Assembly (NCBI GenBank): GCA_016793015.1
Contig: JAEUJD010000135.1
Span: 1-64,000 of the forward strand
Direction of reading: 5' to 3'
Source: Phycisphaerales bacterium
Lineage (GTDB): Bacteria; Planctomycetota; Phycisphaerae; Phycisphaerales; UBA1924
DNA length: 64,000 bases
The position numbers and the translations under genes were made by a program. Of this stretch, positions 57,482 to 63,505 are shown piece after piece; the stretch's first letter is position 1; the number at the start of each line of letters is the position of its first letter. The notes beneath the pieces were generated by a model. That model was not told where the DNA came from. It was given only the letters and a program-made list of their open reading frames with translations, and did not search any database.

Positions 57482-59584
57482 GTGGCCAAGTACAACATCG
57501 ACGACATTCTCAATGAGCTGGGCGTCGACAAGCCCGCTAAGGCGTTGCCCTCCAGAGGTGAAGATGCGCCCTCGCGCACCCAGCCCAAGCGGGTGAGCGT
57601 CGATGACCTCGGTTCCATGCCGGCGTCCGTGCGAGCCGCCGGACCCGATGCGCAGGAACTGGCGATGAGCCCGATCCCGGCCGTCCCCGCAAACCAGCGC
57701 ACCTACGGGGAACTTGTCAAGCTCCGTGAAGGAAGCGACTCGGGTGAACTCCCCGCCAACGACGACCCGGCTGTCAAGCAGATCCTGCCGGCAGCGCCGC
57801 GATCGTCGGTCGGAAGCGCGATGTCCGATCTCTACCGCCCCGAGCAGGTTGCTGGCGCACTCGCAAAGGGCGGCGGCGCTGACCTTGCCGAGTACCTCCT
57901 CTCCCGAGGGCTGGTTCCGGCGGATCGGATGACGGTCGCGCAGGGCGTGCTCAAGCAGTCGCCCGGACGCCGCCTCGCCGACATCCTGATCGAGCAAGGC
58001 GTCGACGAGGTCATCATTCAACGCGCCGTCGCCGAACTTGCCGGCATTCCGTTCGAGCGCATCGATCTCTCCAAGGGACTCGACGGCGGGTTCGATGGCA
58101 AGCTCCTGCAGTCGCTCACGCCCGATTTCTGCAAGAAGAACGGCGTCATCCCGCTCCGAATGGACGGCGCGCGCGGTGTGCTTGGTGTCACCCGACCCGA
58201 CGATGTCTTTCTGCTCGACGAGATCAGGGGGCGGCTGCGGGCTACCGGCATCAAGGTGGTGATGGTGACGGGCTTTGACCTGCGCGGCGCGATGGAGATC
58301 GTCGGCGCCGGCAGAGAAGAGGCCAGCGTCGATGTCTCCGAACTGCTTGCCGAGGTCAGCGAAGGCGACGTGCAGGTCGAGAAGAGAGAATCCAACGAGG
58401 TCAACCTCGAAAAGGAAGCCGCCGAGTCGCCGGTCATTCGCTACGTCAACTACATCATCCAGACCGCCGTGAAGGAAGGCGCATCGGATATCCACGTCGA
58501 GCCCGCCGAGAAGAAGCTCCGCGTGCGGTTCCGAATCGACGGCGAACTCTTCGAGATGATGAACCCGCCCGGCGCGATGTCCGCGGCGATTACCAGCCGC
58601 CTGAAGATCATGGCGAACCTCGACATCTCCGAGCGTCGCCTTCCCCAAGACGGGCGCATCCGGTGCGTTGTGCAAGGCAGAAAGCTCGACCTTCGCGTTT
58701 CCACTCTTCCCACCGGTTACGGTGAGAAGACGGTCATGCGTATTCTCGATACCAAGAGCATCAACGTCGAGCTCGACAACCTCGGTTTCCACGCCGACAC
58801 CCTCGAGGTCTGGCGCAAGATCATCGATCTGCCCCACGGCATCGTGCTTGTCACGGGTCCGACCGGCTCGGGTAAAACCACCACGCTGTACTCGTCGCTG
58901 CGTCAGCTCGACAAGAACACGATGAATATTTCGACGGTCGAAGACCCCATCGAATACCACCTCGACGGTGTCACACAGACCCAGATGCACGAGAAGATCG
59001 GCATGACCTTTGCCGCGGCGCTCAAGAGCCTGCTGCGGCAGGATCCGGACGTGATCATGCTGGGCGAAATCCGCGACATGGAAACGGCGCACATCGCCGT
59101 CCAGGCCGCGCTCACCGGCCACTTGGTGCTCAGCACCTTGCACACCAACGACGCGCCCGCGTCGATCACGCGCCTTGTCAACATCGGGCTCGAGCCGTTC
59201 CTCGTGGGTGCCGCAGTCAACGGCGTGCTCGCGCAGCGGCTGATCCGCCGTCTCTGTACCCACTGCAAAGTGGAGGAGACTCCTTCCGCCGATATGGTCG
59301 AGTATCTCACGATGCAGGGCCTGCCCACCGACAAGATGTGGGCCGCGAAGGGCTGCGAACGCTGCCGCAACACCGGATATAGCGGCCGTGTCGGCATCTA
59401 TGAACTCCTGACCGTGGACGATCAGTTGCGCGACGTCATCGCCCGCAACCCAAACGTCTCCGAGTTCCGACGCATGTGCCTCGAGCGTGGCATGGTCAGC
59501 CTCCGAATGGACGGCGTCCGCAAGGTTGCCCAGGGTTTGACCACCGTTTCGGAAGTGCTCCGCGTCACCGAAGCAAACGCGTAA
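57482..59584 (+). CDS. GspE/PilB-type assembly ATPase
   Basis: 700 residues from GTG at 57482. A poorly conserved 130-residue N-tail starts MAKYNIDDILNELGVDKPAK-like. GspE N1-type domain about 140-280 (LYRPEQVAGALAKGG, LADILIEQGVDEVIIQRAVA, GIPFERIDLSKGLD). The ATPase core has Walker A GPTGSGKTTT near 458, Asp box STVEDPIEYHLDGVTQ, Walker B DPDVIMLGEIRDMETAHIAV and His box LTGHLVLSTLHTNDA. A zinc tetracysteine follows: CTHC near 593 and CERC near 623, then TGYSGRVGIYELL. It powers pilus or pseudopilus extension. Downstream partner of pilMNOP; no PilT or PilC in the window. Confidence 0.93.
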   Translation: MAKYNIDDILNELGVDKPAKALPSRGEDAPSRTQPKRVSVDDLGSMPASVRAAGPDAQELAMSPIPAVPANQRTYGELVKLREGSDSGELPANDDPAVKQILPAAPRSSVGSAMSDLYRPEQVAGALAKGGGADLAEYLLSRGLVPADRMTVAQGVLKQSPGRRLADILIEQGVDEVIIQRAVAELAGIPFERIDLSKGLDGGFDGKLLQSLTPDFCKKNGVIPLRMDGARGVLGVTRPDDVFLLDEIRGRLRATGIKVVMVTGFDLRGAMEIVGAGREEASVDVSELLAEVSEGDVQVEKRESNEVNLEKEAAESPVIRYVNYIIQTAVKEGASDIHVEPAEKKLRVRFRIDGELFEMMNPPGAMSAAITSRLKIMANLDISERRLPQDGRIRCVVQGRKLDLRVSTLPTGYGEKTVMRILDTKSINVELDNLGFHADTLEVWRKIIDLPHGIVLVTGPTGSGKTTTLYSSLRQLDKNTMNISTVEDPIEYHLDGVTQTQMHEKIGMTFAAALKSLLRQDPDVIMLGEIRDMETAHIAVQAALTGHLVLSTLHTNDAPASITRLVNIGLEPFLVGAAVNGVLAQRLIRRLCTHCKVEETPSADMVEYLTMQGLPTDKMWAAKGCERCRNTGYSGRVGIYELLTVDDQLRDVIARNPNVSEFRRMCLERGMVSLRMDGVRKVAQGLTTVSEVLRVTEANA

Positions 59585-59612
59585 TCGGGCCGCGTGCCGT
59601 CTACCGTTCCCG

Positions 59613-60662
59613 GTGAGCAGCTTTGCCCGCCCCAAAGTCGCGATCTCGCTTGGCGATCCCGGTGGCATCGGCCCCGAAGTGATCGTCAAGGCACTTGCCG
59701 ATCCGGCTTTGCGCAAGCAGGCGCACTTCCGGATCCTCGGCGCGCAGGCACCGCTCGATGCCGCGGCACACGCGGCGGGGATCGAACCCTTCTGGTGGCG
59801 TGTCAGTGCGCAGAGCCCAGCGGCCGAAACCGCCGGAGTGCACGATGTTGTCCTTCTCGACTACGAGCCAGGTGGTGTGGTACACGCCCCCCGCGCCACA
59901 AAGGCCTGCGGCGAGCTTTCTTTCCGCTTTATCGACGATGCCATCGCGCAGGTCAAGCTGCCCGTTTCCCATCCGCTGCACGCGGACGCGATTGTCACCG
60001 GCCCGATCAATAAGGCCGCGTGGGCAAAGGCCGGTCACAAGCAGTTTCCGGGACACACCGAATTGCTCGCGGATCGCTTTGGCGTCAAGCACTTCGGCAT
60101 GATGTTCCATGCCGCGGGCGAGCGCGGCTCGCCTCAGATGCCACACGATCTGAATGTCATTCTTGCGACGGCCCACATCCCGCTGATGGAAGTCCGCAAT
60201 GTTCTGACGATCGGCCGCGTTTCGGACACGATCGATCTTGGATCAGACGCGTGCAAACGGCTGGGAATCAGGAATCCGCGCATCGCCGTCTGCGGCCTCA
60301 ACCCCCACGCCGGAGAAGAGGGGCTGCTCGGTGATGAGGATCAGCGTCTCATCGAACCGGCAATCAAGATCGCGCGGAGCAACGGAATCGATGTCTCCGG
60401 CCCGTTCCCCGCCGACACAATCTTCATTTCCGCGATTCAAGGCAAGTTCGATCTGGTGGTCGCCATGTATCACGATCAGGGCCTGATCCCGGTAAAGCTG
60501 CTCGCACGCGACCGTGCGGTGAACATGACCGTCGGTCTCCCCGCGATCCGCACCAGCCCGGATCACGGAACTGCGTTCGACATTGCCGGTAAGAATCTGG
60601 CCGATCCGGGCAGCATGCGCAGCGCGATCCTGCTTGCCTTGCGGATGCTCGCGGCGCGATAG
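59613..60662 (+). CDS. pdxA: 4-hydroxythreonine-4-phosphate dehydrogenase
   Basis: 349 residues, GTG start 28 bases after the ATPase gene. NAD-dependent oxidation and decarboxylation of 4-phosphohydroxy-L-threonine to the substrate of PdxJ. Landmarks: PKVAISLGDPGGIGPEVIVK, DAIVTGPINKAAWAKAGHKQ, FPGHTELLADRFG (metal His), LATAHIPLMEVRNVL, AVCGLNPHAGEEGLLGDED (metal His), FDLVVAMYHDQGLIPVKLLA (metal His), and LPAIRTSPDHGTAFDIAGK. Full length for the family. With pdxJ at 33 kb it marks the DXP-dependent vitamin B6 route. Confidence 0.96.
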   Translation: MSSFARPKVAISLGDPGGIGPEVIVKALADPALRKQAHFRILGAQAPLDAAAHAAGIEPFWWRVSAQSPAAETAGVHDVVLLDYEPGGVVHAPRATKACGELSFRFIDDAIAQVKLPVSHPLHADAIVTGPINKAAWAKAGHKQFPGHTELLADRFGVKHFGMMFHAAGERGSPQMPHDLNVILATAHIPLMEVRNVLTIGRVSDTIDLGSDACKRLGIRNPRIAVCGLNPHAGEEGLLGDEDQRLIEPAIKIARSNGIDVSGPFPADTIFISAIQGKFDLVVAMYHDQGLIPVKLLARDRAVNMTVGLPAIRTSPDHGTAFDIAGKNLADPGSMRSAILLALRMLAAR

Positions 60663-60699
60663 GTCTCGGACGCTTCTCCTAGGATCAGCCCCCTCACCA

Positions 60700-62295
60700 A
60701 TGTCGCACGCTACCGAAACAACCTCCTCCCAGGCTGTCGCCGCCTCCCAGCGCTCGCCGCTGATGGAACTGCTCGCGATCGCGATCCCCACGGTCGCGAC
60801 CATGACCAGCTACACACTGATGACGTTTGTGGACAAGCTGATGGTGAGCAGGATCGGTCCCGATCCGGTGTACGTTGGCGCGCAGGGAAACGGTGGCATT
60901 ACAAGCTGGGTCGCGGTCTCGATCGTCTTCGGTGCGCTCACGGTTGTGAACACATTCGTCAGCCAGAATTTCGGCGCGGGCCGGGCCGATCGTGCGCCGG
61001 CGTACGCGTGGAACGGTGTCTGGCTTGCGATCGTGGCGTGGATGGTGCTGATCCTCCCGTACGCCGCGGTTCTTCCGATGGTGTACGCAGCGGTGCGTGA
61101 CACGAGTTTGCCCCCGGAGGCCTTGGCCGACGTGATCCGCCGCGACAAGATGGCGGTGTCGTTCGCCCAGATTCTGCTGGTTGGCTCGATCATCACGATG
61201 GCCCGCCAGGCGATCGGCCAGTTCTTCTACGGCATGCACAAGCCGACGATCATGCTCGTTGCGGGTGTTGCGGGAAACATTACCAATTTCGCGCTGAATT
61301 CGATGCTGATTTACGGCGCCGCGGGGCCGACCCGCGGCACAGGCACCGGCATGCTCGATGCCGCGATCAATTGGTGGTTCGCTGGTGCATCGTCGATGGC
61401 CGCAACGCTGCACATCCCGGCACTTGGCGTCACCGGTGCCGCGATCGGGACGGTGCTGGGAACGGTCATCGAGTTCGCCGTCATGCTCGTTGTCTTCCTG
61501 TCTCCCAAGTACAACGCCAAGTTCGCGACGCGCACCGGTTGGCGGCCATCCTGGCAGCATCTCAAGGACATCTTCCGGCTTGGGTGGGCACCCGGTCTGA
61601 TGTTCGGCAACGAGATGGTCTGCTGGGGTCTGTTCATGGTCTACTTCGTGGGCCACTTCGGCGCGCAGCACTCGACCGCCGGCTTTATTGCCCACCAGTG
61701 GATGAGTCTTTCGTTCATGCCCAGCGTTGGCATTTCGGTCGCGGTGACCGCTGTTGTCGGCAAGTGCATGGGCATGGGCCGGCCCGATCTCGCGGCACAG
61801 CGTGCCCGCCTCGGACTTGGCTTGTCGATGGCCTACATGGGCACGTGCGCGCTCTGCTTTATTCTCTTCCGGCATTGGCTGGTCGGTGTGTTTATCGACC
61901 CGCAGACCGCCCCCGAAGTCGCTGCCGAAGTCCTGCGCCTTGGCTCCAGCTTCCTCATTCTGACCGCAGTCTTCCAGGTTTTTGATGCTATCGCCATGAC
62001 GCTCTCCGGCGCCCTGCGCGGCGCAGGTGATACCACGTACGTCGGCGTCGTCACGGTCATCAGTTCGTGGCTCGTCATCGTCGGCGGCGGGTGGGTCGCG
62101 ATCCACTACTTCCCGCAGTTTGAATCCGCCGGACCATGGGCCGCGGCAGCGCTCTACATCATCACGCTCAGCGCGTTCATCCTCGCACGCTTTCTTGCCG
62201 GAAAGTGGAAGAGCATCAGGCTCGTGCGCGATGACAAGCACCCAGGACCCGAGCCGCAGGTCACCGCCGGAAGCGTCGCGGATGGCGTGCTCTGA
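60700..62295 (+). CDS. MATE family efflux transporter
   Basis: 531 residues from ATG at 60700; the open frame from 60583 overlaps pdxA. About twelve hydrophobic segments in two halves. Landmarks: LLAIAIPTVATMTSYTLMTF, VDKLMVSRIG, TVVNTFVSQNFGAGR, MARQAIGQFFYGMHKPTIML, LGVTGAAIGTVLGTVIEFAV, GWAPGLMFGNEMVCWG and the closing DAIAMTLSGALRGAGDTTYV. It is longer than the usual 450-470, with an extended loop (TRGTGTGMLDAAINWWFAGA) between segments 6 and 7. Exports cationic or aromatic compounds by Na+ or H+ antiport; substrate not predictable. Confidence 0.9.
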   Translation: MSHATETTSSQAVAASQRSPLMELLAIAIPTVATMTSYTLMTFVDKLMVSRIGPDPVYVGAQGNGGITSWVAVSIVFGALTVVNTFVSQNFGAGRADRAPAYAWNGVWLAIVAWMVLILPYAAVLPMVYAAVRDTSLPPEALADVIRRDKMAVSFAQILLVGSIITMARQAIGQFFYGMHKPTIMLVAGVAGNITNFALNSMLIYGAAGPTRGTGTGMLDAAINWWFAGASSMAATLHIPALGVTGAAIGTVLGTVIEFAVMLVVFLSPKYNAKFATRTGWRPSWQHLKDIFRLGWAPGLMFGNEMVCWGLFMVYFVGHFGAQHSTAGFIAHQWMSLSFMPSVGISVAVTAVVGKCMGMGRPDLAAQRARLGLGLSMAYMGTCALCFILFRHWLVGVFIDPQTAPEVAAEVLRLGSSFLILTAVFQVFDAIAMTLSGALRGAGDTTYVGVVTVISSWLVIVGGGWVAIHYFPQFESAGPWAAAALYIITLSAFILARFLAGKWKSIRLVRDDKHPGPEPQVTAGSVADGVL

Positions 62296-62425
62296 TGTTG
62301 GAAACGCGACAACATGTCGATCAGCGTCGGGCACCATCCGATCGATGAATCAGCGCAGGCGGTCCGCTGATGAGAAAAACTGCTTTTGGTGAGGCTGTTT
62401 GTCAGGGTCCGGTTCGGTTTTGCAT

Positions 62426-62453
62426 TTGACCGGCGGCTTCTGGCCTCTAGTCT
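62426..62453 (+). promoter_or_regulatory. Candidate promoter of the TPR-alpha-CTD gene
   Basis: TTGACC (62426-62431), 16-base spacer, TAGTCT (62448-62453), with the ATG at 62517 after GGGAG. Confidence 0.5.
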
Positions 62454-62516
62454 CCTCTCAGACCTCAACCCGTCGGCATGTGCCGCACGGCAACCGGCCC
62501 TGATTTGGGAGCATTC

Positions 62517-63452
62517 ATGAGCAGCGATCCAATGGACATGGTGATCGGTTCCAGCACCGCGACGCGTGACGTCGCGGCAGCGGGCAAGCACATCAGCGCC
62601 GCCAAGCAGGCGACACAGTCGGGCAACCGAGGCGATGCAATCATCGAGCTTCGGAAGGCCCTTTCGAATGACCCCAACAACGCCGAGGCGCTCTTCAACC
62701 TGGCCTACCAGCTCGATCTGGTCGGCGAAGAAGACGAAGCGGTTTCGCTCTACGAGCGTGCCGCGAACCGGCAGCCCGCGCACATCAACGCTCTCATCAA
62801 CCTCGCGGTTATGTACGAAGATCGTGGCGATCTCGTCCGCTCCGAGCGCTGCCTGCGTCAGGTGCTTGACACCAACCCGAATCATCCCCGCGCCCGCATG
62901 TACATGAAGGATGTGATGGGCAGTAAGGAGATCATCGTCGAGGACGAAGCCGATCGCGATATCTTCAAGCGTCGCGCTCTGCTCGATACTCCGGTGACGG
63001 ATTTCGAACTCTCGGTTCGCGCCCGCACCTGCCTCAAGAAGATGAACATCCGTTCGCTCGGCGACCTGCTCAAGATCACCGAGGCCGAACTGCTCAGCTA
63101 CAAGAACTTCGGCGAGAGCAGCCTGCAGGAAATCAAGGCCATGCTCGTGCAGAAGAATCTGCGTCTCGGTCAGGGCCTTGAAGATGCGCACCGTGCCGCA
63201 CGCCGCGCTCTGCAGGATCAGTACAAGGGCACCGGCCAGGAGCAGACGCTCGGCAAGCCCGTCACCGATCTCAATCTTTCCGTCCGCGCCCGCAAGGCTC
63301 TCCAGCTTCTCAATATCCAGACGCTGGGTGACCTCGCGAGCCACACCGAGGCGGAGCTCATGGGTATCAAGAACTTCGGCGCGACCTCGCTCACCGAAAT
63401 CCGCGATCGCCTCACCGAGTTCGGGCTTGGTCTTCGCAAGCTCGACAGCTAA
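62517..63452 (+). CDS. TPR protein with two RNA polymerase alpha-CTD-like domains
   Basis: 311 residues from ATG at 62517, which has GGGAG upstream; an ATG at 62478 lacks an SD. Residues about 22-130 are three TPR units (AIIELRKALSNDPNNAEALF, AVSLYERAANRQPAHINALI, SERCLRQVLDTNPNHPRARM). An acidic linker follows (IIVEDEADRDIF). Residues 158-218 and 247-306 are two copies of the alpha C-terminal domain of RNA polymerase: PVTDFELSVRARTCLKKMNI then KNFGESSLQEIKAML; PVTDLNLSVRARKALQLLNI then KNFGATSLTEIRDRL. The Arg that contacts UP-element DNA in E. coli (R265) is kept in both (R168, R258); the K298 position is Ser or Thr. There is no alpha N-terminal domain, so it cannot replace RpoA. Strong terminator follows. 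Confidence 0.88.
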   Translation: MSSDPMDMVIGSSTATRDVAAAGKHISAAKQATQSGNRGDAIIELRKALSNDPNNAEALFNLAYQLDLVGEEDEAVSLYERAANRQPAHINALINLAVMYEDRGDLVRSERCLRQVLDTNPNHPRARMYMKDVMGSKEIIVEDEADRDIFKRRALLDTPVTDFELSVRARTCLKKMNIRSLGDLLKITEAELLSYKNFGESSLQEIKAMLVQKNLRLGQGLEDAHRAARRALQDQYKGTGQEQTLGKPVTDLNLSVRARKALQLLNIQTLGDLASHTEAELMGIKNFGATSLTEIRDRLTEFGLGLRKLDS

Positions 63453-63476
63453 GCGGTTCGAATCCGTCCTTTCCAG

Positions 63477-63505
63477 GCCCCCGATTGTCGGGGGCTTTTT
63501 GTTTT
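63477..63505 (+). terminator. Strong rho-independent terminator
   Basis: GCCCCCGA (63477-63484), TTG loop, TCGGGGGC (63488-63495), then TTTTTGTTTT. Ends the TPR-alpha-CTD transcript. Confidence 0.92.

Follow-up and report, generated by a model that had tools for sequence, protein, structure and literature searches.

A TPR protein with two tandem RNA polymerase alpha-CTDs, probably a transcription factor, is conserved across the Planctomycetota

What use does a bacterium with a canonical RNA polymerase alpha subunit have for a second protein that carries two copies of that subunit's C-terminal domain (alpha-CTD)? The question is raised by a gene at 62517-63452 on the forward strand of the window, the 64,000-nucleotide stretch of a Phycisphaerales genome analysed here. 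The open reading frame, Pfam and orthologues agree on a product of 311 aa in which TPRs precede two tandem alpha-CTDs (CTD1 and CTD2). In close relatives, conservation begins with the ATG at 62517, and an in-frame ATG at 62478 lies further upstream. In Pfam, RNA_pol_A_CTD matches twice (whole-protein E 2.2e-39), several TPR families exceed their cut-offs (E 1e-13 to 1e-9) and no family for the alpha NTD matches; the AlphaFold2 model described below agrees with the domain count. A previous reading of this DNA without database searches (the sequence-only reading) had proposed three TPRs, two alpha-CTDs and a missing NTD, all of which is borne out. The NCBIfam rpoA models matched at C-terminal positions only, scoring around 125 bits where the cut-offs are at least 228.

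With 77 orthologues as input, AlphaFold2 gave a full-length model with a mean pLDDT of 87 and a pTM of 0.51, so that the placement of the domains relative to each other is uncertain. It contains three TPR hairpins (residues 19-119; 62571-62873, + strand, as are all features of the protein given here), which are also supported by Pfam and by structural matches to TPR proteins, a long predicted helix leading from the TPRs to CTD1 (residues 124-156; 62886-62984) and a second predicted helix between CTD1 and CTD2 (residues 219-235; 63171-63221). The acidic linker of the sequence-only reading is indeed an acidic stretch, and is predicted to form part of the continuous helix 124-156. CTD1 (residues 152-210; 62970-63146) and CTD2 (residues 241-301; 63237-63419) score 73 and 70.1 bits, both above the curated PF03118 cut-off of 23.8, and residue mapping places both on the E. 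coli domain. When the tandem CTD part was modelled alone (pLDDT 86, pTM 0.62), Foldseek and VIA-align matched it to alpha-CTD structures at 0.7-0.8 Å rmsd, about 46-50% identity and Z 12, among them the Caulobacter alpha-CTD on AT-rich DNA (9zum) and the E. coli alpha-CTD with CAP and DNA. Modelling therefore shows the alpha-CTD fold; the structural matches listed cover CTD1 and barely CTD2, for which the fold is supported by the Pfam score and the model. A fold search with the full-length model returned TPR proteins only among the matches listed.

We propose that this protein is probably a phylum-wide transcription factor. The more specific reading that we favour, with about even confidence, is that of a minor-groove-binding, polymerase-associated core factor of the Planctomycetota, an alpha-CTD provided in trans, whose binding and partner we infer. 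CTD1, like the CTD of RpoA, would bind A/T-rich DNA near promoters by inserting the helix with its R265 equivalent into the minor groove, and CTD2 would do likewise with altered specificity, while the TPR unit on its long helix would recruit or sense a protein partner. Such a factor would be located at promoters, would contact RNA polymerase or sigma, and could either activate or repress transcription.

The distribution of the protein favours this in-trans reading. At E 1e-5 it is matched in 389 of 392 Planctomycetota genomes, and by a count from the table about 368 of the 392 reach E 1e-30 or better, which RpoA by itself, without the TPR protein, is taken not to attain. The planctomycete occurrence mentioned in the sequence-only reading thus holds for nearly all genomes sampled from the phylum. 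Furthermore, a PF03118 census of 35 genomes found one RpoA and one tandem pair in nearly all of them; the exceptions were a single domain in two genomes and one or two extra single CTDs in a few. In the window genome, a single canonical rpoA lies on a separate contig (C141), flanked by ORFs that read as ribosomal proteins S11 and L17, the place in the ribosomal-protein cluster (rpsK/rplQ) outside which the TPR/tandem alpha-CTD gene is found. The form found in the window's order is short (about 310 aa), and open frames in other classes mostly span 430-490 aa, with extra TPRs at the N terminus. Matches in the contig scan are labelled planctomycete except for a few, which we presume to be mislabelled. 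On plasmids and named phages, no match covers 80% of the query; the matches there are TPR-only or RpoA-like, and of two that were inspected, one is a canonical RpoA and the other has no annotated gene.

Near-universal retention would also be expected of a nucleoid-associated protein, in which a linked pair of minor-groove domains would coat or bridge A/T-rich DNA throughout the genome and the TPRs would drive self-association, and the two putative DNA-binding domains per chain, carried on predicted helices, fit this idea. However, the net charge of the two domains is near neutral (0 for CTD1 and +1 for CTD2 in the window protein), unlike that of typical abundant nucleoid proteins, and CTD1 has fixed sigma-contact residues, so that we regard this role as improbable.

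Sequence conservation points to where the constraint lies. Among 32 genomes, pairwise identity averages 68% for CTD1, 53% for the RpoA CTD and 49% for CTD2, and CTD1 exceeds the RpoA CTD in 93% of the pairs. The CTD1 domains form one clade (support 0.86), as do the RpoA CTDs (0.89). For the DNA face we used 12 positions (264, 265, 267, 268, 269, 293, 294, 296-299 and 302), picked from knowledge of the E. coli alpha-CTD-DNA contacts together with direct neighbours rather than computed from coordinates, and compared them with 26 other polar positions in 40 genomes sampled across the phylum. Mean modal conservation of the DNA face versus the other polar positions is 98% versus 68% in CTD1, 77% versus 48% in CTD2 and 80% versus 52% in RpoA, and random position sets of the same size reach the DNA-face values in at most 0.1% of draws. 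The DNA face is therefore the site of highest constraint, and CTD1 is tighter there than the polymerase's own CTD. Both the identity of CTD1 (68% against 53% for the RpoA CTD) and its DNA face (98% against 68%) favour the in-trans reading. Of the options that the sequence-only reading had raised, a putative bridging of UP-like DNA to a TPR partner is the one best supported by DNA-face conservation.

Individual residues add to this picture. The equivalents of R265 and E302 are 100% conserved in both CTDs, most CTD1 and CTD2 domains have an extra Arg at position 267, and CTD1 retains acidic residues at the sigma-contact positions (D259 in 95%, E261 in 100%). Acidic residues 259 and 261 of the E. 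coli alpha-CTD touch sigma region 4. We count this pattern in favour of the in-trans reading, and, given the retained acidic pair, CTD1 might sit beside the -35 element through a possible contact with sigma region 4. The close fit to DNA-bound alpha-CTDs (about 0.7 Å) is a further argument on the same side. In the window protein, R168 of CTD1 and R257 of CTD2 correspond to R265, in line with the sequence-only reading. That reading had also marked the replacement of K298, correctly as to the residues (S201 in CTD1, T290 in CTD2). As a difference that sets the two domains apart from RpoA, however, it is ruled out, because position 298 is Thr in 97% of the RpoA CTDs sampled across the phylum, including that of the window genome. 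The difference that matters is at N268, a residue important for DNA contact in the E. coli alpha-CTD, whose equivalent is Thr in CTD1 (T171) and Lys in CTD2 (K260) of the window protein, a change that the sequence-only reading had passed over; in the phylum-wide sample of 40 genomes, CTD1 keeps Asn at this position. The Thr and Lys in the window protein count against the in-trans reading. Moreover, descent from a DNA-binding domain would by itself predict some conservation of the face, which we likewise count against it.

The same residues bear on the possibility of a decoy or adaptor, in which the alpha-CTDs would mimic that of RpoA and bind activators, sigma, NusA or Spx-like proteins, which the TPRs hold or sequester, and DNA binding would be secondary. 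Alpha-CTDs bind many proteins, and complexes with Spx, CAP, sigma region 4 and AfsR are among the alpha-CTD structures matched by the model. Acidic residues 259 and 261 are fixed in CTD1, and N268 has been lost in the window's lineage, all of which would suit such a role. But in CTD1 and CTD2 alike, conservation peaks on the DNA face and exceeds that of the other polar surface, and for this reason we consider a decoy or adaptor unlikely, if worth keeping in mind.

Gene context points in another direction. A search of 40 diverse genomes located RuvA_N in 34, and in 17 of these 34, from 12 family-level groups, ruvA lies just downstream of the TPR/tandem alpha-CTD gene on the same strand, followed by ruvB in several. 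The gap between the gene and the ruvA open frame is 33-46 bases in two genomes from a single family, and in one genome (G206) a RuvC-like ORF lies between the two. The protein could accordingly be an accessory of RuvAB in recombination and repair, its alpha-CTDs, which are HhH-like, binding DNA near junctions and its TPRs contacting RuvA or RuvB. This linkage is absent from the window's class and from the Planctomycetia, where the protein is nevertheless conserved. Furthermore, RuvA_N (PF01330) had no match in six near-complete genomes (G152, G167, G283, G369, G377 and G307), the first five of which carry the tandem pair, and none in the window genome (G000, 87% complete); RuvA may be divergent or missing in all of these. 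The domains are specifically alpha-CTDs and not RuvA-like HhH domains, and the neighbours of ruv operons are often functionally unrelated to them. We therefore think a RuvAB accessory improbable and take the adjacency as a weak pointer to a role in recombination; it suggests an ancestral gene order that was later broken. A replacement of RuvC by the protein was ruled out, since 29 of the 31 genomes checked encode RuvC.

Other Phycisphaerae have a SpoIID-like protein, tgt, yajC and secD downstream (names by reading of the sequences). That ruvA, tgt, yajC and secD are not transcription genes counts against the in-trans alpha-CTD reading. The upstream neighbours in the window's order are MatE and PdxA. 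In the window, the stretches at 57482-60662 and 60697-62295 upstream of the gene hold genes for a T2SSE/MshEN ATPase (PilB-like), a PdxA-like protein and a MatE transporter, and PdxA and MatE relatives recur near the gene in other Phycisphaerales.

The region upstream of the gene contains a conserved, promoter-like footprint at 62400-62431 (+), defined by alignment with six close relatives and comprising TGTCAGGG, GTTNGGTTTTG and a -35-like TTGACC at 62426-62431. Sixteen bases after the latter follows a -10-like TAGTCT (62448-62453, +), which reads TAGTNT or TAGCGT in close relatives. The six closest relatives all have TTGAC(C/T), closely preceded by a T-rich tract and followed by a -10 of the TAG type, and the DNA flanking the footprint aligns poorly among them; more distant Phycisphaerales have different -10-like motifs. 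The sequence-only reading had seen a strong promoter here. A promoter-like element is present, but its strength was overstated, as the fit to consensus is not good and no promoter upstream of the gene passed a sigma-70 scan. The 19-base core of the footprint has one exact occurrence in the genome, and as a common motif it was discarded, with 11 matches at up to three mismatches compared to eight for the reversed control and thus no enrichment. Downstream, a terminator search found an intrinsic terminator-like hairpin followed by a T run at 63475-63497 (+), in agreement with the terminator of the sequence-only reading. The description as a single gene holds in the window's order, whereas in other parts of the phylum ruvA often follows it.

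Compared with known systems, the two domains share the fold and family of the RpoA CTD (PF03118) and keep its DNA-contact residues R265, G296, S299 and E302. The protein differs from RpoA in the missing alpha NTD, the tandem arrangement of two CTDs and the fusion to TPRs, and the canonical RpoA of the genome is separate. Alpha-CTDs outside RpoA are already in databases, including free single alpha-CTDs (NCBIfam NF005841/PRK07758), which likewise have no NTD. Unlike the protein described here, these have one domain in frames of about 90-150 aa and no TPRs, and the 311-aa protein falls far short of the NF005841 cut-off. An extra free single alpha-CTD of this kind occurs in some planctomycete genomes (L186:2836-3300, L187:2957-3226 and L188:3047-3457; frames 90-155 aa), with an RpoA-like start, LEMSTAEIGLxVRTTNCLE. 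BREX PglW kinases also contain an alpha-CTD-like domain in a non-polymerase protein, but they are very large defence-system kinases with a single divergent domain. Two very large frames with one divergent alpha-CTD-like segment (L189:2485-6753 and L190:3400-7815) are probably PglW-like BREX kinases. AfsR is a TPR-bearing regulator that works through the alpha-CTD and sigma region 4 (PMC10936776). It and other TPR-bearing SARP activators resemble our protein by analogy only, as AfsR binds the CTD of RpoA and contains none itself. For the combination of TPRs with tandem CTDs, no description or function was found in the open-access literature. Should the protein act at promoters, it would be an undescribed transcription factor of an entire phylum, made from the DNA-binding tail of the polymerase and more strongly conserved than that tail, and models of planctomycete promoters would change. 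Genome-wide transposon-insertion data exist for Planctopirus limnophila (PMC10632474).

Small single alpha-CTD proteins also turned up when viral contigs were scanned with the CTD profile (L206:2974-3309; L209:2773-3204, also in L207 and L208; L210:2968-3186). L206-L209 represent two related phages, with a terminase large subunit in L209 (PHROGs) and a similar ORF in L206. The alpha-CTDs of L206-L210 share 61-63% identity with CTD2 and 48-52% with CTD1 or RpoA, and in a FastTree phylogeny of about 60 columns they nest, with moderate support, inside the CTD2 clade (0.83-0.86) and not with RpoA. From these sequences we infer planctomycete hosts and capture of the CTD2-like copies from the host. 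The nesting favours the in-trans alpha-CTD reading; a doubtful extension of it is that a dedicated general transcription factor adds an alpha-CTD pair in trans and that some phages counter or exploit it through captured CTD2 copies. Other viral contigs (L211-L222) carry diverse NTD-less alpha-CTD-like proteins, with two such ORFs in succession in L211, L213 and L214 and long N-terminal extensions in L215 and L220.
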